Source: Paraburkholderia sp. FT54 (GTDB lineage Bacteria; Pseudomonadota; Gammaproteobacteria; Burkholderiales; Burkholderiaceae). Taken from it: a stretch of DNA of 64,000 nucleotides. The translations under genes were made by a program, and so were the position numbers. Where the stretch lies: assembly GCF_031585635.1 (NCBI RefSeq), contig NZ_CP134196.1, positions 1 to 64,000 of the forward strand, read 5' to 3'. Positions 7,378 to 30,413 of the stretch are shown here, piece after piece. The notes beneath the pieces are model-generated. The model did no database searches and was not told the origin of the DNA. It saw nothing but the letters and a program-made list of their open reading frames with translations. Each line of letters begins with the position of its first letter. Positions within the stretch are counted from its first letter, which is position 1.

Positions 7378-8460
7378 ATGTCACCTCCTCATCTCGTCGA
7401 CCCCGTTCCGCGTCCCGCGCCGTCCACGGATCTCTTCGATCAGCAACGCGAAGACTGGCGTCGCGATCCGCAAATCGCATTCGACGCATGGCTTGCCAAA
7501 CAACATTTCCGCCGCTCTTCCGCTGAAGTCTACCAGGCACAGTGGGGGCTTTTTCTCGAATGGCTGGGCATGCGCCAGAAGAGTCTGGTCACGGTTGACA
7601 CTCGCACGATTGCCGAATTCGTCGCGGGACTGGATGTCAAAAAAACGCAGCGCGCGCGGTATTTACGATTGATCGAGCGGGTACTCGATCATGTGCGGGA
7701 AATCGAATCCACTTCGACCAATCCGGCGCGCTTCATTGCTCAGGATGGCGAAGCAGCGTGGCGAAACGCGCGCGATAACGAGCCGACCGGCTTTCTCAAC
7801 CACGCCGAACGGACCGCGCTGATCGCGCATCTGTTTTCTCCGTTGCCGGATTTGTCGGCAGCGCAACGGTGGAGGGAGCGGCGGGACCGCGCTTTGATTG
7901 CTGTGTTTTTAGGCGGCGGATTGAAAACGGGCGAGGGCGCCTCGCTTACGGTTAGTTGCGTGAATGCAGGCTCGCCCTGGGTGGCGATCGAGTCAGCCAA
8001 TCCGATGCTGACACGGCGCACCCGGCTCGCGCCTTTCGCCGCGGCCATTCTCGACGCGTGGCTTGCCGAACGGCGTCTTTCGGAATTGGCGGGCAATCTG
8101 GTTTTTCCCGCATCGCCTTCCGGACGGCCGATGCATAAAGCCACCATGCTGCGCGCGGTCGACGCCCTGATCGACGGGGCCGGGATCGCTGAATCGCGGG
8201 CGTCGCGAGCTAGTCCGCAGACATTGCGCAACACATTTGCAGCGGATCTGTTCGAGAGCGGGGTCGAGGCGGAACTGGTCGGACAATGGCTGGGGTTCGT
8301 GCAGGCGGTTTCGGCGAACCGTCTCTATCGTGCGTGGCAAAACTGGATGGATCAGCAGGATTCTCCCGCCTCGGACGTTCCTGATCCGGCCGTTCCGCCG
8401 TTACCCGCACCTAGGCGTGACGGGCGTTTGACGCGGAAAAGGGGAGCCGACGAGTCCTGA
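7378..8460 (+). CDS. Tyrosine recombinase-like protein with degraded catalytic residues
   Basis: A 360-residue protein with phage-integrase/XerC-D architecture: a SAM-like core-binding domain (about 33-125) and a catalytic-like domain (about 140-322). Residues normally catalytic are altered. The first Arg box, usually GLRxSE, reads GLKTGE (Lys-183). The HxxR box reads SPQTLRNTFA (Gln-281, with Arg-284 kept). The LGH box reads LGF (Phe-307). The nucleophile-position Tyr-317 is retained. This suggests DNA binding without efficient strand exchange. The C-terminus is a Pro-rich basic tail. It has a good RBS (GGAAGG), and an inverted iteron overlaps its stop codon. Confidence 0.75.
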   Translation: MSPPHLVDPVPRPAPSTDLFDQQREDWRRDPQIAFDAWLAKQHFRRSSAEVYQAQWGLFLEWLGMRQKSLVTVDTRTIAEFVAGLDVKKTQRARYLRLIERVLDHVREIESTSTNPARFIAQDGEAAWRNARDNEPTGFLNHAERTALIAHLFSPLPDLSAAQRWRERRDRALIAVFLGGGLKTGEGASLTVSCVNAGSPWVAIESANPMLTRRTRLAPFAAAILDAWLAERRLSELAGNLVFPASPSGRPMHKATMLRAVDALIDGAGIAESRASRASPQTLRNTFAADLFESGVEAELVGQWLGFVQAVSANRLYRAWQNWMDQQDSPASDVPDPAVPPLPAPRRDGRLTRKRGADES

Positions 8461-8496
8461 AACGCTCACCTTTCGAGTCCCGAATTTCCTCACCTT
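8455..8496 (-). repeat. Two outlying RepA-type iterons in inverted orientation
   Basis: Read on the minus strand, AAGGTGAGCGTTTCAGGA (8455-8472) and AAGGTGAGGAAATTCGGGA (8478-8496) match the 19-bp units of the main array at 10121-11685, which lie on the plus strand. They are 1.6 kb from the array, between the convergent recombinase-like and KfrA-like genes. The first overlaps the stop codon of the recombinase-like gene. They may be a handling or titration site for RepA. Confidence 0.8.
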
Positions 8497-8530: not shown

Positions 8531-9736
8531 TCACGCCGACGCCGCGATCGAGGTGCTCGACAGAAACCGGCTAACCGCCTCCAGCCTTGATTCGCCCAGA
8601 CCCGACGAGTGATCGCATTCCAGGCACTGTAGCTCGAAGCGGTGATCCACTTGCGACAGTTCCGGCTCACCTTCCTCACATTTTGGGCACCGCAGCGGTA
8701 GGGCGACATGACCGTCCGCCGTCGTGCCGATCGCCCTTAATTCGTCGGTCGTCAGCCGGCCGGCTTCGACCAGCGAGCAGAGCAGACTCGCAATCGCCGG
8801 ATCGATACCTTGCTGGCCGCGCAGGCTGGCGATCTCTTTCGTGAGCGCGTCCACTTCGTCGGATTGCTCGCGCAGCTGGGCGTCGAGCCGGTCGCCGCGT
8901 GCCTTGGCCGCGGCGATTTGCTGAATAAACTCAAATTCTTTGCGGCTTGCGTCGCGCACGCCGGACTGATAGGTGGCCGCCATGCTGCGCAAGGAGTCGA
9001 GCTCGACCAGCATCGGCTTGACGCGCCGCTCAGCTTCCGCGACAGCGTCCTTGATCTGCTGCGCATAGTGTTCAGTGCTTTGACGCAATTCGACGTGCAA
9101 GGCGTCGATCCGGTCTCGCAATGTCGCATTGTTCGCGAGTTCATTGTCGAGGCGTTGACGAAGCACTTCGTTCTCGTGATCGAGTCGGCGCACCGTGGCC
9201 TGTAAGCCTTCCTGGTGAGCATTTCCGTGTGTGGTCGCGCTCGATAGCTCGGCTTCGAGCGCACGAACACGTTCCCATGCGGCCTCCGCTCGCAGTTCGC
9301 TGCGCGTGATCGCGTCTTCCGATACTTGCTGGCGAATTTCCGCTTCTCGAGCGCGCTGCTCGGCGCTGTTGATTTGCGCACGAATTTCTTCGCGTTCGTC
9401 GTCGAGTGTCGTGCGTGCCTGTACGACGGCTTCTTCGAAAAGTGCGCCCAGCAATTCGCCGGCGCGGTCTTCGAGTGCTTTTGGGATAGCGCCGGCGCCG
9501 ACTTTCACGCGCGACACATTTCGGATGCGCTCCCAGAAGTGGTCGATGTCCTTTGGAATGTCGCTCGCACTGCCGGTCTGAGTCAGATCGCGGACGGCGG
9601 CCATGGACGGACGGATTCCCAGATCAAAAAACAGTCGCTTACATGCGTGCAGCGAAAGTTCCTGTCGCCGTGCCCCGTTGAGCCGTAGCGCCTCAAGCTC
9701 GTTTCGAATGGCTTGCCGTTCCTGATCCAGATTCAT
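8531..9736 (-). CDS. KfrA-like DNA-binding coiled-coil protein
   Basis: A 401-residue protein. The N-terminus (about 1-110) resembles the plasmid KfrA DNA-binding domain (GARRQELSLHACKRLFFDLGIRPSMAAVRDLTQTGSAS...). Residues about 115-320 form a long coiled coil rich in Glu, Arg, Ala and Leu. The C-terminus has a zinc-ribbon-like pair, CPKC (350-353) and CLEC (371-374). KfrA proteins autoregulate and support plasmid partition or nucleoid attachment; that this one serves chromosome 2 maintenance is inferred from its position beside the origin. ATG 9736 has GAGGT upstream; the longer frame to 9967 has no such support. Confidence 0.75.
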   Translation of the reverse strand: MNLDQERQAIRNELEALRLNGARRQELSLHACKRLFFDLGIRPSMAAVRDLTQTGSASDIPKDIDHFWERIRNVSRVKVGAGAIPKALEDRAGELLGALFEEAVVQARTTLDDEREEIRAQINSAEQRAREAEIRQQVSEDAITRSELRAEAAWERVRALEAELSSATTHGNAHQEGLQATVRRLDHENEVLRQRLDNELANNATLRDRIDALHVELRQSTEHYAQQIKDAVAEAERRVKPMLVELDSLRSMAATYQSGVRDASRKEFEFIQQIAAAKARGDRLDAQLREQSDEVDALTKEIASLRGQQGIDPAIASLLCSLVEAGRLTTDELRAIGTTADGHVALPLRCPKCEEGEPELSQVDHRFELQCLECDHSSGLGESRLEAVSRFLSSTSIAASA

Positions 9737-9766
9737 GTATACCTCGATGTCGCTCGAATTGGATTG

Positions 9767-9800
9767 ATCATAACAATTTACGTATTGTTTGCTACGTATT
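9767..9800 (-). promoter_or_regulatory. Candidate kfrA operator/promoter with TACGTATT direct repeats
   Basis: TACGTATT occurs at 9779-9786 and 9793-9800, each containing the palindrome TACGTA, 14 bp apart. On the minus strand TATGAT at 9772-9767 is a plausible -10 for the KfrA-like gene, so the repeats lie where its promoter should be. Autoregulation through such repeats is usual for KfrA proteins and is inferred here. Confidence 0.4.
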
Positions 9801-9881
9801 CGTTGGTGCGATGGACGGATGCGAGAAAAGGCGTGTTTTGCTGTCCGGAGGGGGGCAGTGGATTCGCGCCAGCTAGTTTTC

Positions 9882-9970
9882 TTCGTGAAACAAAACGAAG
9901 AATAGCCAATAAGGTCTTGTAAAGAAAGAGTTTTTAAAGATTTTACATCGATCGCGCACTGTTTCACGAA
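9882..9970. other. AT-rich segment bounded by 11-bp inverted repeats, candidate unwinding element
   Basis: TTCGTGAAACA (9882-9892) and TGTTTCACGAA (9960-9970) are exact inverted repeats that enclose an unusually AT-rich stretch (about 9893-9950) with runs such as GAGTTTTTAAAGATTTTAC. This is the most AT-rich segment near the iterons and could be the duplex unwinding element of the origin. The arms contain GTTTCACG, half of the chromosome 1 parS palindrome known in this group. Confidence 0.5.
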
Positions 9971-10120
9971 TGCTTCACGACGGCTACTTCGGTTCGAAGG
10001 CTTTGTCCGAAGGACACGCGGGGAAAATTCTAGAGAGTAATAAAAGTAAACACCTTTGAACCCATGTTAAAAACGTTAACGCCACGGCAAAGCCTTATCC
10101 AGCAAGGGTTCCAGCCCGAT

Positions 10121-11117
10121 AAGGTGAAGCTTTGCGGGAGAGGTGGTGAGATCTTGCGGGATTGTCGAGTGATGAGGTTCGGGGGCCTCGGTGAGCGGCT
10201 CCGGGACAGAACGTGAGCGGGTTCAGGAGGCATCCCAAAAGTGCGGTGCGGCCAAAGGTGAGATTTTGCAGGACCTGAACGCTATGGATCACCCGACTGG
10301 GCTCGAAAGTCTGTTCCAGGCCCGGGCAGGGAGAAGGTGAGCGCTTTCGGGACGTGCTCGTCCGGCCAATTTCGGCCTTGTTTTGAGCTCGCTCACCCCA
10401 TTGGTGAGTCAAGTCGGGAGAAAACGCGAACCGAAGGTGAGATTTTACGGGGCAGAGGTGGCATTTTTGCCTTATTTCTGTGCATTCCGGTGCCTAAGGT
10501 GAGGATTTTCGGGAGTGAGGTCGGGTTTCGGACCGAATGCTCGCGTCTACGCTGGATGAATGAACCGATCCCTACTGGCAAAGGTGAGGAAATCCGGGAG
10601 GTAGACTTTCGCGCGATCCGCCGCTCGAGAAATGCGCGTGATTTTGGTCAAAGGTGAGACTTTTCAGGAATCGTTTGGCTGCTTGATGGGCATTAAGGTG
10701 AGGAAATACAGGATCAAAACGGCTTCCATCGCCGGGAAAAGCCCTACTGACGCTGCTGAAGTCGCTTGCGTTCTGTCGTCGCGGAAATCGCACGGTGAGA
10801 ATTTTCAGGACCGTGGTGGCTACGATCGGAAACGCCCAATTTCGCCGAAATGCGCTTTGAGGTGAGGTTTTACGGGAGCCATGATGGCTGCGCTCGGCAA
10901 CGTGTCGTCTGTAAGTTGATGAAATCATTGAATATTTGTGTTGTATTTTGCAAAGGTGAGGTTTTTCGGGGGCTCCTTCTAGAGACGAGCGGCGAGGATC
11001 AGATGGCACTACGGTGAGGTTTTGCGGGACCGTTTTTCGGTGCTTTTGGAGCACAACACGCCTGAAGGCCGCGTCGTTCCAAGCGCTTCGCTGGCGTTAA
11101 GGTGAGCTTTTTCGGGG
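10121..11117 (+). repeat. Iteron array of the RepA-dependent origin
   Basis: At least 14 full 19-bp units close to RAGGTGAGRWTTTNCGGGA are seen, starting at 10121, 10255, 10334, 10434, 10496, 10581, 10651, 10695, 10792, 10859, 10953, 11011 and 11099, with a slightly shorter one at 10145. More degenerate copies lie at about 10172, 10190, 10213 and 10401. All are on the plus strand, and unit spacing varies from about 44 to 100 bp. Such repeats upstream of a Rep_3 initiator are binding sites for the initiator and define the origin. Confidence 0.9.
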
Positions 11118-11553
11118 GCTTTCAGAGGGTTGAGCCGGGCTCGTCGGGACAAGAGGCGTTGCTCGTGCACGGTCGATTACCTTTGCGCAAGTAGTAGTTG
11201 CATCGATGCGCGAAACTCAGGCCGGGCGCGCGGTTGGAACGCTTGCGACACCTGGAGGCATCGCCCTCGGCTGCATCGCGTGAACGCCGGGGCTGCACGC
11301 GGGGCGGTCTCAATAACACGGGTGGCCGGTTTGCCGCTGCGCAGTACTCTCTTCGCACGGCGCAATGCATGCGTGGAGTTGCGCATTAAGACGGTGCCGA
11401 TTCATCAGTTCGCATGCCGGCGTCCACCCTTTTGCGCCGCCCCCAACCCTCCCCTGTCGGCCAACCACTACTTGAAACTTGTTCACTGCCTTGATCGGCC
11501 GCAACTGCACCCAGTCCGCAGAGGTGCACCGGTCAGAATCCCGAAATTTTTTT

Positions 11554-11685
11554 GAGGTGAGAAGATTCGGGATCGAGTGGCTTCCGTTCACGTACACAGT
11601 GAAAACGGCTCGGATTTGCCAAGCCCGCGACCTGCAAGGACGGCCCGAACTTGGCGCGAAACGGCTGAGGTGAGGGTTTTCGGGA
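11554..11685 (+). repeat. Two repA-proximal iterons
   Basis: GAGGTGAGAAGATTCGGGA (11554-11572) and GAGGTGAGGGTTTTCGGGA (11667-11685) match the main array but lie close to repA (start 11772). Further partial GGTGAG motifs occur at about 11695 and 11731. Iterons next to the initiator gene usually mediate RepA autorepression, which is inferred here. Confidence 0.75.
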
Positions 11686-11771
11686 GTTGTTCGAGGTGAG
11701 GTGCGCCCCGTAAACTCGCTTCACCCGCAACGGTGAGATGCACGCTATAGACGCGTATCACCGCAGCCGGT

Positions 11772-13154
11772 ATGCTCTCGCCAAATCCCCCCTCGACCAG
11801 ACGCATGGCCACGAAGCGCGCGAAGAAGACCGATGTAGTCAGCCCGAGCTCGGCCGAATTGCGTAAAGCCGTCGAGGCGATCGCCATTCAGCCCAAAAGC
11901 GGCAAAATCACCCTCCTTACCCGCAAGCTGTTCAACGTGCTCCTCGCCGTGGCTCAGCAGGCGGACGAATCCGGCGATACCTATCGGGCCTTGCTCTCCG
12001 ACATCGTCGCGAACTCCGCATTTGATTCCAACGACACGGCGCTCGTCAAGGAGCACTTGCGGCGTATGGTGTCGGTCCAGGTCGAATGGAGCACCGGCAC
12101 GTCGAGCCAGAAGCCGGGCCGGAAATGGGGTATTTCCACGCTGATTGCCGACGCCGAAATTCTCGAAGACCCCACAACCCGCCGCGTCTGGGTGGAATTC
12201 TCGTTTGCGCCGAAGATCAAGAAGAAGCTGCTCGACCCGGTTCAGTACGCCCGGCTGAGTCTCCAGTTCCAGAGCCAGTTACGCAGCAGCGCGGGTCTTG
12301 CGCTGTACGAGATTTGCGTGCGCTACCTGACCAACCCGAGCCATCTGACGATGCGCGAGACTTGGGAATGGTGGCGCCCTATCCTCTCCGGCACACCGGA
12401 CACGGAAGCGGGCGATGAAGCGAAGCGCGAGTACAAGTACTTCAAACGTGATTACCTGCGCCCGGCTATCGCCGAAGTCAACGCCGTCACCAATATCTTC
12501 GTCGAACTGATCGAGCATCGGGAAGGACGGCGGGTCGCCGAGATCCAGTTCCGCGTGACCGAGCGCAAGCAGCCGATGCTCGCGCTCGACGAACATCCGA
12601 ACGTGTTCGACAGCACGCTGGTCGACCGAATGGTGAAGATCGGCATCCCGTTGAAAGAAGCGCAAACGCTATATGCCGACAGCGAAGAAAATCGTATTCG
12701 CGCCGCGCTTCAGATGACCGAGCAACGCATGCGCAGCACGTCCTTGCCGCCGGTGCGCAGCGCGCCCGCGCTGTTCAAGGACGCGCTGAAGAAAGGCTAC
12801 GCGCCGCCCGTCGAAGCGCTGCCGTCGGGTAGCGGCGGCAAGGCAGCGGTTGCCGCGCCGGCCGACGACCTCAAGGCGCGCCTGCTTGGCGAGTACTCGG
12901 CGTATCGGCGCAAGGAAGCGCGCGAGTTGTACGACGAACAAGGTGAGTCTGAGCGGGAGATCGCGCGGCAGTCGTTTGAAGAAGATGAACTGCCGGGACT
13001 CGGCACTCACCTGCGCGACGACTGGCGCCGTCGCGGGCTGGATTCGAAGATTGTCGAAACGGCATTCTTCGATTGGCTGGCTCGCAAGACATGGGGCGAG
13101 CCTACCGATGGCGATCTGCTTGCCTTCACGCTGAGCCAATCGCGCGCAGCGTAA
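11772..13154 (+). CDS. repA: Replication initiator protein RepA (Rep_3 family)
   Basis: A 460-residue iteron-binding initiator. The family's twin winged-helix core spans about residues 45-280. It is recognisable from KITLLTRKLFNVLLAVAQQ, the strand-rich VWVEFSFAPKIKKKLLDPVQYARLSLQFQSQLRSSAGLALYEICVRYL region, and EYKYFKRDYLRPAIAEVNAVTNIFVELIEHREGRRVAEIQFRV. The C-terminal 160 residues are a longer extension than in plasmid Rep_3 proteins. It acts on the adjacent iterons to start replication of chromosome 2. An alternative start is ATG 11805, and neither start has a strong RBS. The partition genes follow on the opposite strand. Confidence 0.92.
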   Translation: MLSPNPPSTRRMATKRAKKTDVVSPSSAELRKAVEAIAIQPKSGKITLLTRKLFNVLLAVAQQADESGDTYRALLSDIVANSAFDSNDTALVKEHLRRMVSVQVEWSTGTSSQKPGRKWGISTLIADAEILEDPTTRRVWVEFSFAPKIKKKLLDPVQYARLSLQFQSQLRSSAGLALYEICVRYLTNPSHLTMRETWEWWRPILSGTPDTEAGDEAKREYKYFKRDYLRPAIAEVNAVTNIFVELIEHREGRRVAEIQFRVTERKQPMLALDEHPNVFDSTLVDRMVKIGIPLKEAQTLYADSEENRIRAALQMTEQRMRSTSLPPVRSAPALFKDALKKGYAPPVEALPSGSGGKAAVAAPADDLKARLLGEYSAYRRKEARELYDEQGESEREIARQSFEEDELPGLGTHLRDDWRRRGLDSKIVETAFFDWLARKTWGEPTDGDLLAFTLSQSRAA

Positions 13155-13211: not shown

Positions 13212-14270
13212 TTACTTCAACATCTTTTCAATCTGGCGAAGGATATCGTCGCGTTTTTCACGCGTGAGCCCCTTTAGACGAAGTTCGATTCGATCATCCC
13301 CATATGATTTGAGATCGCCGACTGACACACCGTCGAGTTTGATTTCCAGACGTTGCGCGTAGCGCTGCCGGCCCGCAGGTTTGCTGCTTTCCTGGGCACT
13401 CGCCCTTCCCTTGACGATATCCGCGACTTGCCGCGTACTCAGATCGTCCGAGAGGATCTTGTTGATCAGGCGCAGGGTTGCATCGGCGCCGCGGGCAGTG
13501 TGATAACGACCCACCTGATACGCCATGTTCGAGCCGAAGCGGTCCGGTCGCGCGACCATCTCATGCATGACGGCTTCAGGCAACTTGGCGATCGACAAGG
13601 CGACAGCAACAGTGGACTCGTCTAGCCCGAGGTGTTCGGCGAGTTCCTTCTGACTCTGGAAATGCCGGTCGTCGAGAAAGCGTTTCCATACGACCGCGTT
13701 GTCGAACACCGTCTGCGAGTCGCGTTGGACGTTGAGGTCGTAGCCGAGCTTGTAGCTCTGGATACCGATCGGCAGATCGATGACGATCGCCTTCACCGTT
13801 TCCTTGTTGGCTTCTTTCAGTGCCCGCACTCGTCGTCCGCCATCGCTGACGTAGTAGGTGCCGGGATTGTCGTAATCCGGGATGACGTGGATCGCCTGCT
13901 GCTGCCCCTGCTTTGCGAGATTGACGGCGAGCTCGGCAATCGATGACTTCAGATAGAAGTACCGCGGATTGAAGGGACTCGGCTTGATCGTCTTGAGCGC
14001 CAACTCGATGACCTGACCTGGCCGGTAGCCGTGCTCGATCCGCCATATGCGGTAGGCCGCCGACTCATTGGCTGCGTCAACGGCGTCGATATCGGCGACG
14101 TTATGCGACGGCACGACGGGCGCGAGGGTGCGCCCCGCGACGTCGCCAGTCGCGGCGCCGTTCTTGACCAAGCCGTCGATGGCGTTCAGACGATCGAGCG
14201 CGGTCCGCTTTTCACTGCTGGTCGAATCAGGACGTGCTTGAAAGCCTTTGGCGAATTGGGAGGGTTTCAT
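13212..14270 (-). CDS. parB: Chromosome 2 partition protein ParB
   Basis: A 352-residue ParB. The N-terminal CTP-binding/Box I-II region is seen around VIELALKTIKPSPFNPRYFY and TYYVSDGGRRVRALKEANKE. The helix-turn-helix is QSQKELAEHLGLDESTVAVALSIAKLPEAVMHEM, and the C-terminal dimerisation domain ends LTREKRDDILRQIEKMLK. ParB loads at parS and segregates the origin region with ParA. The gene follows parA by 25 bp, and one parS lies exactly in that gap. It is convergent with repA, 57 bp away. Confidence 0.93.
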   Translation of the reverse strand: MKPSQFAKGFQARPDSTSSEKRTALDRLNAIDGLVKNGAATGDVAGRTLAPVVPSHNVADIDAVDAANESAAYRIWRIEHGYRPGQVIELALKTIKPSPFNPRYFYLKSSIAELAVNLAKQGQQQAIHVIPDYDNPGTYYVSDGGRRVRALKEANKETVKAIVIDLPIGIQSYKLGYDLNVQRDSQTVFDNAVVWKRFLDDRHFQSQKELAEHLGLDESTVAVALSIAKLPEAVMHEMVARPDRFGSNMAYQVGRYHTARGADATLRLINKILSDDLSTRQVADIVKGRASAQESSKPAGRQRYAQRLEIKLDGVSVGDLKSYGDDRIELRLKGLTREKRDDILRQIEKMLK

Positions 14271-14279
14271 TCAGGGTCC

Positions 14280-14293
14280 TTTATGCGCATAAA
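14280..14293. promoter_or_regulatory. parS centromere site between parA and parB
   Basis: The perfect palindrome TTTATGCGCATAAA fills most of the 25-bp parA-parB gap. It matches the parS type reported for chromosome 2 of Burkholderia cenocepacia. Its position could also let ParB influence parB expression. Confidence 0.9.
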
Positions 14294-14295
14294 TT

Positions 14296-14958
14296 TCACG
14301 GGAGCAAGGCGGCGATCTCATTCGCGCACGCCCGTACTTCGATGGCGGCGAGCTTGGCGCCGCGATCATTCATCTGAAGCACTGTTTGCCCTAACGCCAT
14401 GGCCTGCTTGTAGGCCTCGCGAGTCGGGATTTGTGTCTTGAGCAGCGGGAACCCGAGCTCTTCCAACGCGCGCTTCAGTTCGCGCGTCAGCATCCGTTTT
14501 TCTTCGGTCTTATTGAGCAGGAAGACGGCACGCAGGTCTTCGTTCATGACCTGCGCCTGCTGGACAAGCTTTACCAATCCGATACTCGACCAGTAGTCGG
14601 CGGGCGATGACGATGTCGGGATCACCGCCACGCTCGCGGCGAGAAGGACAACGCCGGAGACTTTCTCGGTGATGGAAGGCGGGCAGTCGACGACGATGAT
14701 GTCGTAGTCAGCCACGAACTTCTTGATCTCGCGATGGATCTGGCTGCCTGCTTCGGAGAGGTTGACGACTGGAAAGGGGATGCCGGTGTCGCCGTCGGAT
14801 GATGCACTGGCCCAATGGATCAGGGTGTTTTGACCGTCTGCGTCTACGACGAGGACGCGTTTGCCTTTCTCATGAAACGCAGCGCCGAGGTGCATCGCGA
14901 TTGTGCTCTTCCCGACCCCGCCCTTCTGCTGAGTTACCGCGATGATTTCTGCTGCCAA
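14296..14958 (-). CDS. parA: Chromosome 2 partition ATPase ParA
   Basis: A 220-residue ParA/MinD-type ATPase with a deviant Walker A motif KGGVGKST (residues 12-19), the switch region VVDADGQNTL, Walker B-like IIVVDCPPS and LNKTEEKRMLTRELKRAL. It lacks the N-terminal helix-turn-helix of large plasmid ParA proteins, so it resembles the small chromosomal and type Ib forms. It drives segregation of parS-ParB complexes on the nucleoid. The start codon is TTG (14956-14958), chosen because AGGAGG lies just upstream and the Met-Ala-Ala-Glu start aligns with the family N-terminus. It is the first gene of parA-parB. Confidence 0.93.
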   Translation of the reverse strand: MAAEIIAVTQQKGGVGKSTIAMHLGAAFHEKGKRVLVVDADGQNTLIHWASASSDGDTGIPFPVVNLSEAGSQIHREIKKFVADYDIIVVDCPPSITEKVSGVVLLAASVAVIPTSSSPADYWSSIGLVKLVQQAQVMNEDLRAVFLLNKTEEKRMLTRELKRALEELGFPLLKTQIPTREAYKQAMALGQTVLQMNDRGAKLAAIEVRACANEIAALLP

Positions 14959-15059
14959 TCTTCACCTCCTCTTTTTAGACGCAAATGGATTTTACCTGGA
15001 AGAATTTGTATTTCAATCGTTTTAGTGGAAATGCGAGAAGGATTAGCCATTCGGCTTAG

Positions 15060-15075
15060 GTTTATGCGCATAAAG
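15060..15075. promoter_or_regulatory. parS site 2
   Basis: TTTATGCGCATAAA at 15061-15074 with flanking G on both sides, 102 bp upstream of the parA start. Same palindrome as the site in the parA-parB gap. Confidence 0.9.
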
Positions 15076-15362
15076 GCGCGGCAGCGCGATGTGGAAACCA
15101 TGTGGGATGAGGGCGCACGCCGGGTGGATACGCCAGAGAAGGGTTTGCTCCACGTCGCAACCGTAGATGCTCCGAGCGGTGACGGAAATGTGATCGCGCC
15201 GATGCCTTGCGTCGCCGAGTGGTCTGGCTAGGGCGGCTGCCAATCCGAATGCATTTGGGCGCGACGGCGACGTGGCTCTGCATAACACCACGAGGGTCAC
15301 CCAGCGACGCGATGCGCGCGGTGACGGCGAGGGTGCGGTCGACGACCGGCGCGGCCCGAAAA

Positions 15363-15376
15363 TTTATGCGCATAAA
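15363..15376. promoter_or_regulatory. parS site 3
   Basis: TTTATGCGCATAAA, followed by C as in the extended consensus GTTTATGCGCATAAAC. Lies in the gene-free stretch upstream of parA. Confidence 0.9.
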
Positions 15377-15583
15377 CTCGTCGCCGCGGGATCTGCTTTG
15401 AAGCTCTTTCGCCAGTAGCGAGTCGGCTCCACAGTTCAATGCTTCATCTCGGTGATCACAGCATCGGGCGGTGTGACCTGACGTGCCAGGGTCCCTCGAG
15501 GACGGTCGCACGCAGCGCGCACAGGCTGCAACAGCTACAGCCAGATAGCGTGGCCAGTGCGGAAAAAAGCAGATGCCCGGCGC

Positions 15584-15597
15584 TTTATGCGCATAAA
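15584..15597. promoter_or_regulatory. parS site 4
   Basis: TTTATGCGCATAAA followed by C. It is the most distal perfect copy seen, about 630 bp upstream of parA. Confidence 0.9.
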
Positions 15598-22127: not shown

Positions 22128-22488
22128 GGTTCGATCCTCCATAAAGTAGGGTTCGCTCACGCGGCGCGCGTAATCGCTCACTGATGCCCAGCGCGTCGAT
22201 TTCCGCCAGAGCGGGACACAAACAAACACCTGGTTGCCTCAAAACGTCCTAGGCCGGAAGCATGCTTGATTGACAAGGCAAAAGTACCAGTTATCCACAA
22301 GGTTATTCAGCAAATCTGTGGATAACTTTCTGCGGGGCAAGGTTATCCACCGCGCACCACGTCGTATGTGCCCCAATAGTCGCGAGGCGGTATTTGGCGC
22401 GGGTCGTCGCCGCATGCGCTGCTTTTGCCTATGATGGACAGTTCGTACCCTTATGCGCATCAAGCGCGTCACAAGAAGGAAGCGAATC
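22128..22488. other. Intergenic region with DnaA boxes and a degenerate parS
   Basis: About 360 bp between divergent genes. It contains three near-perfect DnaA boxes within 61 bp (22291-22351) and an imperfect chromosome-2 parS-like palindrome at 22449-22464. Otherwise it serves as the promoter region for the small hydrophilic protein and the FMN reductase. Confidence 0.6.
22291..22351. promoter_or_regulatory. DnaA box cluster
   Basis: TTATCCACA (22291-22299) and TGTGGATAA (22317-22325) are perfect R1-type DnaA boxes in opposite orientation, and TTATCCACC (22343-22351) is a one-mismatch box. TTATTCAGC (22303-22311) may be a weak fourth. The cluster is about 9 kb beyond repA, outside the iteron field. 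It could titrate DnaA, assist origin function or regulate the flanking genes. Confidence 0.75.
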
Positions 22489-29564: not shown

Positions 29565-30413
29565 TTGGCTGTTTCCAATCTTGTCGTGGACGATACAGAA
29601 ATCGACGCCGCTGCCGCCACGTCCGGCAGCTCGTTCTATCTCGCCATGCGCATCCTGCCGGCCGCGCAGCGCGACGCGATGTATCAGGTCTACGCTTTCT
29701 GCCGCGCCGTCGACGATATCGCCGACAGCGACATGCCGCGCGCCGAACGCGCCGCCGCGCTCGAGCGCTGGCGGGCCGACATCGACGCGTGCTACGCCGG
29801 CGCGCCGCGCGCTTCGCTGCGCGCGCTGACGCGGCACATTCATACGTTTCATCTGCAACGCGAAGACTTCCACGCGATGATCGACGGCATGGCAATGGAC
29901 GCCGCCGAAGACATCTGCGCCCCCGATGAAGACACGCTCGACCTCTATTGCGACCGCGTCGCGAGCGCGGCGGGCCGTCTATCGGTGAGGATATTCGGGA
30001 TGCAGGAAGAGCTCGGCCGTTTGCTCGCGCATCATCTGGGCCGCGCGCTGCAGCTCACCAACATCCTGCGCGATATCGACGAAGACGCCGGCATCAATCG
30101 CTGCTATCTGCCGCACGAATTGCTGGCGCGCGAAGGCATCGCGGTGACGAACCCCACGCAGATCGCCGACGACCCGTCGCTGCCGCGCGTGTGCGCCACG
30201 CTCGCCGAGCGGGCCAAGGAACACTTCGCCGCGTCCGACGCGATCATGGACCGCGAGCCGCGCAATCACGTGCGGGCGCCGCGCATCATGTCGGGCGTGT
30301 ATCGCGTGCTGCTCGAACGGACGCTGGAGCGCGGCTTCGACATTCCGCGTACGAAGGTCAGCAAGCCAAAGCTCCGCATGCTGTGGATCGTCGCGCGTTA
30401 CGCGCTCTTCTGA
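29565..30413 (+). CDS. hpnD: Presqualene diphosphate synthase HpnD
   Basis: A 282-residue trans-isoprenyl diphosphate synthase that condenses two farnesyl diphosphates into presqualene diphosphate. Both Asp-rich motifs are visible: YAFCRAVDDIADS near the N-terminus, and LTNILRDIDEDAGINRCYLP in the middle. The start is TTG 29565, preceded by CGGAG; ATG 29493 is a weaker alternative because the sequence between does not look like the family. It is the first gene of hpnD-hpnE-shc-hpnG, with 4 bp before hpnE. Confidence 0.92.
   Translation: MAVSNLVVDDTEIDAAAATSGSSFYLAMRILPAAQRDAMYQVYAFCRAVDDIADSDMPRAERAAALERWRADIDACYAGAPRASLRALTRHIHTFHLQREDFHAMIDGMAMDAAEDICAPDEDTLDLYCDRVASAAGRLSVRIFGMQEELGRLLAHHLGRALQLTNILRDIDEDAGINRCYLPHELLAREGIAVTNPTQIADDPSLPRVCATLAERAKEHFAASDAIMDREPRNHVRAPRIMSGVYRVLLERTLERGFDIPRTKVSKPKLRMLWIVARYALF

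Follow-up and report, generated by a model that had tools for sequence, protein, structure and literature searches.

Known iteron origins

The iteron plasmids P1 and F have phased iterons in ori, a separate control array (inc) and an autoregulated rep gene. Among secondary chromosomes, Burkholderia cenocepacia chromosome 2 (c2) has an iteron origin with the consensus ctCCCGAAAAacCTCACCTtt, and by marker frequency it replicates bidirectionally from the origin region, with a slightly lower read depth near the origin in its left arm (Du 2016, PMC4948915); the S1 Table legend of that paper places a second iteron cluster of strain J2315 140 kb anticlockwise. In Vibrio cholerae chromosome II (chrII), a 74-kb stretch some 40 kb away from the origin holds additional initiator sites, which titrate the initiator and inhibit replication (Baek and Chattoraj 2014, PMC3937223), and ParB2 binds a parS2 half-site in the origin and raises the copy number of origin plasmids (Venkova-Canova 2013, PMC3688505). 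The timing of secondary relative to primary chromosomes is known in few systems; how the B. cenocepacia chromosome 1 (c1) Par system acts on the replication of the three chromosomes was named as open by Du 2016 (PMC4948915), and a 2026 survey regards the identification of "timers" in further systems as a remaining task.

The window analysed here is a 64,000 nt stretch, bases 1–64000 of the 2,949,897 bp contig C2 of Paraburkholderia sp. FT54, whose Paraburkholderia-type genome is 8.65 Mb in five contigs. We consider it quite probable (roughly 0.85) that the region described below is the replication origin and copy-control region of a Paraburkholderia-type second chromosome, a plasmid-type origin with a Rep-titrating array. 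The original prediction of an iteron-type secondary chromosome origin is borne out by the Rep_3 domains of the initiator, parAB, four parS-like palindromes, the size of the contig and the iteron consensus, which is the c2 consensus on the other strand, i.e. aaAGGTGAGgtTTTTCGGGag.

The replicon and its origin-proximal genes

The FT54 initiator (Rep) is 97–99% identical to those of many Paraburkholderia, the best named matches being Paraburkholderia sp. BL25I1N1, sp. BL9I2N2 and P. xenovorans LB400 chromosome 2, and about 87–92% identical to those of Burkholderia, Caballeronia and Mycetohabitans replicons of 0.7–3.5 Mb; it is present in 143 of 144 same-genus genomes, the FT54 genome counted. A Pfam domain search finds Rep3_N (45.4 bits) and Rep3_C (39.7 bits) in it, both above cut-off, and there is a weak match to the PI protein 2nra; the two winged-helix domains of a Rep_3 iteron replicon initiator are present. 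The start previously given to this gene, 11772, is probably to be replaced by ATG 11805, the start in three annotated relatives. The TTTATGCGCATAAA palindromes at the par locus (Table 1) are the B. cenocepacia chrII parS of Table 1 in PMC7022226, so that iteron consensus, Rep and parS are all alike between FT54 and the Burkholderia c2 type.

Left of the origin, a tyrosine recombinase gene (7378–8460) lies between tdh-kbl-like genes and kfrA; it is absent at the same place from the (incomplete) Mycetohabitans pBRH01 gene table and is perhaps an insertion. No Rfam family matches 9600–11900 at E values up to 1. P. phenoliruptrix LMG 22037 has a second, 92% identical Rep (L132) whose upstream DNA is without iterons.

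Table 1. Features of the probable FT54 second-chromosome origin region (window positions)
Feature	Position	Strand	Basis or remarks
Nearest satellite iteron	8478..8496	-	opposite orientation; 24-bp-spaced pair in many relatives
kfrA-like gene (KfrA_N)	8531..9736	-	domain match; adjoins split-parS element
Split-parS element, 85 bp	9884..9968		CGTGAAACA at 9884, 67-bp AT-rich spacer, TGTTTCACG at 9960
Conserved AT-rich block	10030..10098		alignment of relatives
Compact core, five iterons	10121..10228	+	starts 10121, 10143, 10166, 10188, 10210; steps 22, 23, 22, 22
Dispersed array, 12 iterons	10255..11117	+	conserved spacing; starts (repeat search) 10255, 10334, 10434, 10496, 10581, 10651, 10695, 10792, 10859, 10953, 11011, 11099
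Variable-length gap	11118..11553		internal control for spacing
Two promoter-proximal iterons	11554-11572, 11667-11685	+	distance to rep near-constant
Half-iterons, alternating orientation	11695..11762		sequence; GGTGAG 11695, TTCACC 11720, GGTGAG 11732, TCACC 11758
Rep_3 initiator gene (Rep3_N, Rep3_C)	11805..13154	+	open frame from 11772; ATG 11805 likelier start
parB of second chromosome	13212..14270	-	profile matches
parA of second chromosome	14296..14958	-	NF041546 above cut-off
Four parS-like TTTATGCGCATAAA palindromes	14280, 15061, 15363, 15584 (region 14280..15597)		at par locus
Three DnaA boxes (+,-,+)	22291..22351		third box one mismatch; 26-bp steps; ~10.4 kb right of rep

The iteron array

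Allowing up to three mismatches, the 19-bp repeat has 18 matches in the 64 kb, against 0.15 expected (100 shuffles, largest count 1). Sixteen are on the plus strand at 10121–11685, one is on the minus strand at 8478–8496 and one is at 29982. The 16 near-identical plus-strand iterons that had been reported upstream of the Rep_3 gene are thus real and far above chance; that tally overlooked three degenerate iterons at 10166, 10188 and 10210. The start-to-start spacings of the 16 are 22, 112, 79, 100, 62, 85, 70, 44, 97, 67, 94, 58, 88, 455 and 113 bp, a range of 22 to 455 bp rather than the 44–100 bp first given. The match at 29982–30000, 18 kb to the right, lies inside a squalene/phytoene synthase gene and recurs in Caballeronia SBC2 (L067) and B. 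cenocepacia (L158), where it is identical or differs by a single base; it is therefore probably a coding coincidence. A lone good iteron is found 1.68 Mb from the origin (L016:6713-6734, C2:1681713), with a 17-base stretch, AGGTGAGCTTTTGCGGG, that is found again at G018:C1:1742046 and G099:C1:5886558.

The leftmost five iterons, including the three degenerate ones, form a compact core which reads as an ordinary 22-bp-phased plasmid-type array adjoining an AT-rich block; phased direct iterons beside an AT-rich region, as expected of a Rep_3 replicon, are present here as five copies at 22–23 bp steps. When 77 anchored loci are aligned on iteron 3, weak iterons appear at -89, -67 and -45 in addition to those at -134 and -112, and the slot at -23 is empty; at each core position GGTGA, AGTGA or CGTGA stands at the exact offset in 41–48 of the 77 loci, and further loci carry core iterons displaced by one base. 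The Mycetohabitans core has the same 22–23-bp steps. The AT-rich block at 10030–10098 (..GAGAGTAnTAnAAGTAAACACC..GTTAAAaACGTTAACGCC..) is more conserved than most of the surrounding DNA. It is a candidate DNA-unwinding element.

The array had been described as differing from compact plasmid arrays; this holds for the dispersed iterons, but a compact core, partly degenerate, is there as well. Dispersal does not establish the distinct mode of handling or initiation that had been suggested; dispersed iterons are also found on a 440-kb Janthinobacterium plasmid and on a 1.1-Mb B. cenocepacia replicon, and are therefore not unique to second chromosomes. The 12 dispersed iterons of the Janthinobacterium plasmid (L164:1561-3290) have a related motif, TGAGCTTTTACAGGGA.

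Between the last iteron and rep, half-iterons of alternating orientation are conserved in a 30-locus alignment and make up a candidate Rep-dimer operator of rep. From these features we infer the following scheme. Rep would bind the five 22-bp-phased iterons of the compact core and open the adjoining AT-rich block, while the twelve dispersed, the two promoter-near and the satellite iterons (below) would take up further Rep; these extra iterons would, through titration and handcuffing, hold initiation down in the manner of iteron-plasmid inc loci or the extra RctB sites of V. cholerae chrII, and rep would be autorepressed through the alternating half-iterons at its promoter.

Conservation of iteron spacing

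Alignment of the origin regions of related genomes had been proposed as a check on repeat conservation, and in such alignments both the array and its spacing recur. The count covers 80 relatives (78 of 80 named loci, B. cenocepacia and Mycetohabitans); locus L132, the second Rep without iterons, was excluded from every interval count, as was L096, in which our script did not detect the Rep motif and whose array still shows the conserved spacing. The relatives have the 13 spacings of the window from 22 through 88, then a gap, then 110–113 bp. Setting aside changes above 16 bp, 679 of 780 intervals are within 2 bp of the FT54 value, 27 differ by 3–8 bp, 61 by 9–12 and 13 by 13–16 (691 of 792 are within 2 bp if the window's own zeros are counted). 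Agreement is looser where an interval spans a missing iteron (n=134; 104 within 2 bp, 11 of 3–8, 7 of 9–12 and 12 of 13–16). Of 61 cases of the 44-bp step, the FT54 window counted, 60 are exact. This "ruler" makes what had been called irregular spacing measurable, and models of handcuffing or looping must account for it.

It is quite improbable that the dispersed and satellite iterons are passive relics of array duplication whose spacing was kept by descent and a low indel rate. Site-by-site identity, computed for the 34 relatives with 13 iterons matching within 6 bp, averages 0.89 in the iterons and 0.65 in the spacers, and drops to 0.53–0.60 in the spacers of the more distant of these (shuffled own spacers give 0.50); spacers thus lose most of their sequence identity and yet keep their length. 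The adjacent gap before the last two iterons measures 125–823 bp between iteron starts, with 65 distinct lengths in 80 loci, so nearby DNA changes length freely. Exact-length parsimony on the rep tree gives, for 11 intervals, 168 steps of 1–3 bp, 5 of 4–8, 26 of 9–13 and 2 larger, whereas the 70 steps in the gap on the same tree comprise 13 of 1–3 bp, 8 of 4–8, 5 of 9–13 and 44 larger. The larger spacing changes are mostly of about one helical turn, which also speaks against passive relics (26 one-turn against 5 intermediate steps, binomial p 1e-4; a coarser four-state parsimony, done before the exact-length one, gave 21 against 11). Our own reading is that there may be selection on helical phase between neighbouring iterons, and the conserved spacing suggests a fixed geometry. 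A test for placement of the whole FT54 array on a single helical face was negative (R 0.20 at 10.5 bp).

Satellite iterons

Left of rep, weight matrices find single satellite iterons at -3.3 kb (the nearest, about 1.6 kb from the array) and -62 kb, two each at -48 and -75 kb, six at -21 kb and, depending on the cut-off, six or seven at -12 kb; the distances that run across the contig join presume that C2 is circular. These satellites spread over about 75 kb, most of them face the opposite way to the array, and all lie outside open frames that match Pfam families, although small family-less frames overlap some.

The same one-sidedness is seen near the origin in relatives. In ten genomes (G015 and G044, which have rep at a contig start, and the FT54 genome not being among them) the exact iteron pattern has 123 occurrences in the main array and, within 100 kb, 162 on the left and none on the right, the right side wrapping past the contig start in G026 and G142; the same replicon has another 44 sites farther off (15 belong to G066, of which 14 are 178–272 kb leftward), and 21 are on other contigs. 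Seven genomes (G018, G026, G036, G071, G099, G120 and G142) have a far pair, about 350 bp apart, between -55 and -84 kb, and the small genomes G015 and G044 have one near -15 to -20 kb. Satellite number and position differ among genomes, and this variation, with the distant G066 block, is what passive relics would be expected to show; against such relics, the satellite sub-spacings of 65, 83, 24 and about 350 bp are common to several species. Candidate distal initiator sites near the origin, as in V. cholerae chrII, are recognizable here by their sequence, in keeping with the Rep-titrating role proposed above.

We give little credence to the idea that Rep is also a transcription regulator with the satellites as its operators. 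Some satellites, in the -12 and -75 kb clusters, do lie upstream of gene starts, in part as far as 450 and 760 bp from the closest gene with a family match, but the six-site -21 kb cluster is between two convergent genes, the -62 kb site lies behind the end of an MCP gene and faces a family-less open frame, and the genes that neighbour satellites have no common function.

Candidatus Vallotia plasmids (61 and 66 kb; L068, L071, L072) retain the chromosome-2 Rep and parAB with a shrunken array, and are a natural reduced version of the second-chromosome replicon. They keep 3 or 8 iterons, the 8 with several of the ruler distances (133, 33, 79, 146 and 87), and no satellites were found in the whole 61-kb plasmid or in 50 kb of the 66-kb plasmid, a loss that is confounded with genome reduction.

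A cluster like that 140 kb from the J2315 origin was not found in B. cenocepacia CMCC(B)23006 in the record outside positions 243001–255000. A chromosome-1 iteron acting as a crtS-like trigger was considered and rejected, as C1 has only two-mismatch sites, 20 of them against 19 in a whole-genome reversed control; three of the 20 are copies of one word that is found on C2 too. crtS itself is described as being without similarity to iterons.

DnaA boxes

DnaA boxes are common in iteron origins, though not universal. The absence of a perfect box from the FT54 origin, previously noted, extends to boxes with 0–1 mismatch, so that this feature of Rep_3 replicons is lacking, and the TTATCCAGC at 10095 that had been put forward as a DnaA-like box is not conserved among relatives. 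A box with 0–1 mismatch is present in the origin of 16 of 81 loci (perfect in 3), and no box is conserved among the aligned loci of the relatives.

The cluster of three DnaA boxes right of rep is extremely unlikely to be the true origin. Three-box clusters, mostly with 26-bp steps, are found in 51 of 81 loci, an inverted box pair lies 4.2–10.7 kb right of Rep in 56 of 82, and for B. cenocepacia c2 the origin predicted by Ori-finder is 4 kb away from the iterons (Du 2016, PMC4948915). However, the inverted pair (TTATCCACA-N17-TGTGGATAA) recurs at up to two mismatches 3–13 times per genome in 20 genomes, on several contigs (reversed control 0–1); it was not found in 26 of the 82 loci, Caballeronia among them (9 of the 26 have less than 4.3 kb on the right); and its distance to Rep is highly variable, which that of the iterons is not.

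A split parS element

The origin had been taken to start at 9971, which leaves outside an 85-bp element at 9884–9968. Its two ends, CGTGAAACA and TGTTTCACG, are the outward-facing halves of, and identical to, the genome's own chromosome-1 parS (TGTTTCACGTGAAACA); the full site (TGTTTCACGTGAAACA; TGTTNCACGTGNAACA) occurs in the FT54 genome only at C1:27072 and C1:28626, near the chromosome-1 parAB genes. Among the 80 loci with enough upstream DNA (FT54 included) the first half is present in 77, the second in 79 and both in 76, the chance expectation being 0.0023 per half per 600 bp. The halves are 76 bp apart in 65 of the 76 loci, 75 in five, 77 in one and 91–121 in five, and the spacer falls to an identity of 0.45 with its length held at 66–68 bp. 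The 7-mer GTTTCAC by itself is common, with 11 occurrences in the window. The FT54 spacer carries a YAAN4TTG core; among 110 distinct elements, 81 have this core or CAAN4TTR (7.4 in shuffles), although most of these are related second-chromosome copies and hence not independent. The full IHF consensus scores modestly: 17 of 75 second-chromosome copies reach 8 or 9 of its 9 positions (9% in shuffles), as do 5 of 12 extra copies on other contigs (5% in shuffles). An RNA stem was discarded, since two diverged elements carry a mutation in one half with no compensating change in the other.

A whole-genome search found the pair in 139 of 144 same-genus genomes, the reversed control giving 0 in all; G015, G044, G056, G116 and G128 had no match. 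A shorter version is present in 17 of 17 genomes of the own genus, G015 and G044 among them, and in 70 of 160 family genomes and 9 of 24 genera (control 0), and was not found in the other 15 genera of this 160-genome sample. Among the matches listed for 15 few-contig genomes of G000–G038 (13 counted, with G000 and G015 added), 26 elements stand on 44 non-primary contigs, one primary contig being assumed per genome, and never are there two on one contig. In B. cenocepacia CMCC(B)23006, chromosome 2 carries one element, with one mismatch, and the 1.1-Mb replicon another; 401,222 bp of control DNA gave no match at up to two mismatches. P. xenovorans LB400 chromosome 2 (L077) shares both the iteron array and the element with FT54. 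Not every secondary replicon has the element: FT54 has one exact copy, on C2, and none on C3, C4 or C5 (relaxed searching of C5 and of the par regions of C3 and C4 yielded a single pair with two mismatches, on C3 at 78 bp, which we do not count as a copy), and the two Ca. Vallotia plasmids are without it.

Possible readers of the element

The element might be merely an operator of the adjacent kfrA-like gene, a reading that we regard as unlikely. It does lie about 150–230 bp upstream of kfrA at the second-chromosome origin, and the two Vallotia plasmids that lack it have no kfrA-like gene listed beside rep in their (incomplete) gene tables. Away from that origin the association fails: among the matches listed for few-contig genomes there are 12 extra copies on other contigs, of which one has a KfrA_N gene within 10 kb and 11 have none, whereas each of the 12 has a parA or parB match no more than about 5 kb away (in L176 a weak ParB match only) and four are also near a Rep homologue. 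The ParB domain matches vary among the 12. Since the extra copies are near par genes with differing ParB matches and rarely near KfrA_N, the reader is more likely to be one trans-acting factor shared by the replicons than the KfrA that each of them encodes.

The ParB of chromosome 1 (ParB1) would be the natural candidate for this reader. We tentatively propose, at somewhat less than even odds, that Burkholderiaceae secondary chromosomes and many megaplasmids carry one 85-bp split centromere which ParB1 binds and which couples them to chromosome 1. The split centromere would adjoin the replicon's own origin or partition genes, with its halves 75–77 bp apart around an IHF-like bend site; ParB1 would bind it without loading as it does on full parS, and the bound protein would tie the initiation or position of each replicon to chromosome 1. 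B. cenocepacia ParB of c1 retains 49% of its SPRi binding score on half-parSc1 (Pillet 2017, PMC5450999), and for F ParB a two-fold SPRi drop meant a 100-fold loss of affinity (PMC5450999). ChIP-seq shows that ParB of P. aeruginosa and several others bind the half-parS GTTTCAC or GTTCCAC, and nine ParBs in the same review analysis did not bind half-sites (PMC7022226). Full B. cenocepacia parS sites are not bound by the ParBs of its other replicons (PMC5450999), and the split site might respect this replicon specificity. B. cenocepacia that has lost c1 parA, with a polar effect on parB, shows a lower ori/ter of c1, c2 and apparently c3, but it also doubles more slowly (136 vs 72 min), and the authors emphasise its delayed c1 replication (PMC4948915). 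If the proposal is correct, coupling of ParB1 to split parS would be the missing link by which c1 parA loss acts on the replication of the other chromosomes; the element offers this question a concrete cis-acting site that is amenable to test.

Comparison with known systems

The FT54 origin shares phased ori iterons, a separate control array and rep autoregulation, the last as predicted here, with the P1 and F plasmids. It differs from them in having partly degenerate ori iterons and a control array that is placed between ori and rep and whose conserved distances are not phased.

The B. cenocepacia J2315 c2 origin is alike in iteron consensus, repA-type initiator and parAB (PMC4948915), so an iteron origin with this consensus is already known and the basic finding is not new. 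The compact core, the spacing ruler, the one-sided satellites and the split-parS element go further; they are not known to have been described for J2315 c2 (PMC4948915). In the literature searched we found nothing on conservation of iteron spacing in Burkholderiaceae or on a two-half parS element, and an earlier mention is possible.

V. cholerae chrII likewise combines an iteron origin with extra initiator sites at a distance (PMC3937223), but its initiator is RctB, and the nearest FT54 satellite is only about 1.6 kb from the array. It also has a parS half-site within its second-chromosome origin region (PMC3688505); there the ParB2 of the same chromosome is involved, whereas the FT54 half-sites match the primary-chromosome parS and form an outward-facing pair of fixed spacing. 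Known half-parS binding concerns scattered single half-sites or synthetic probes, while the FT54 site is a conserved two-half element at replicon origins.
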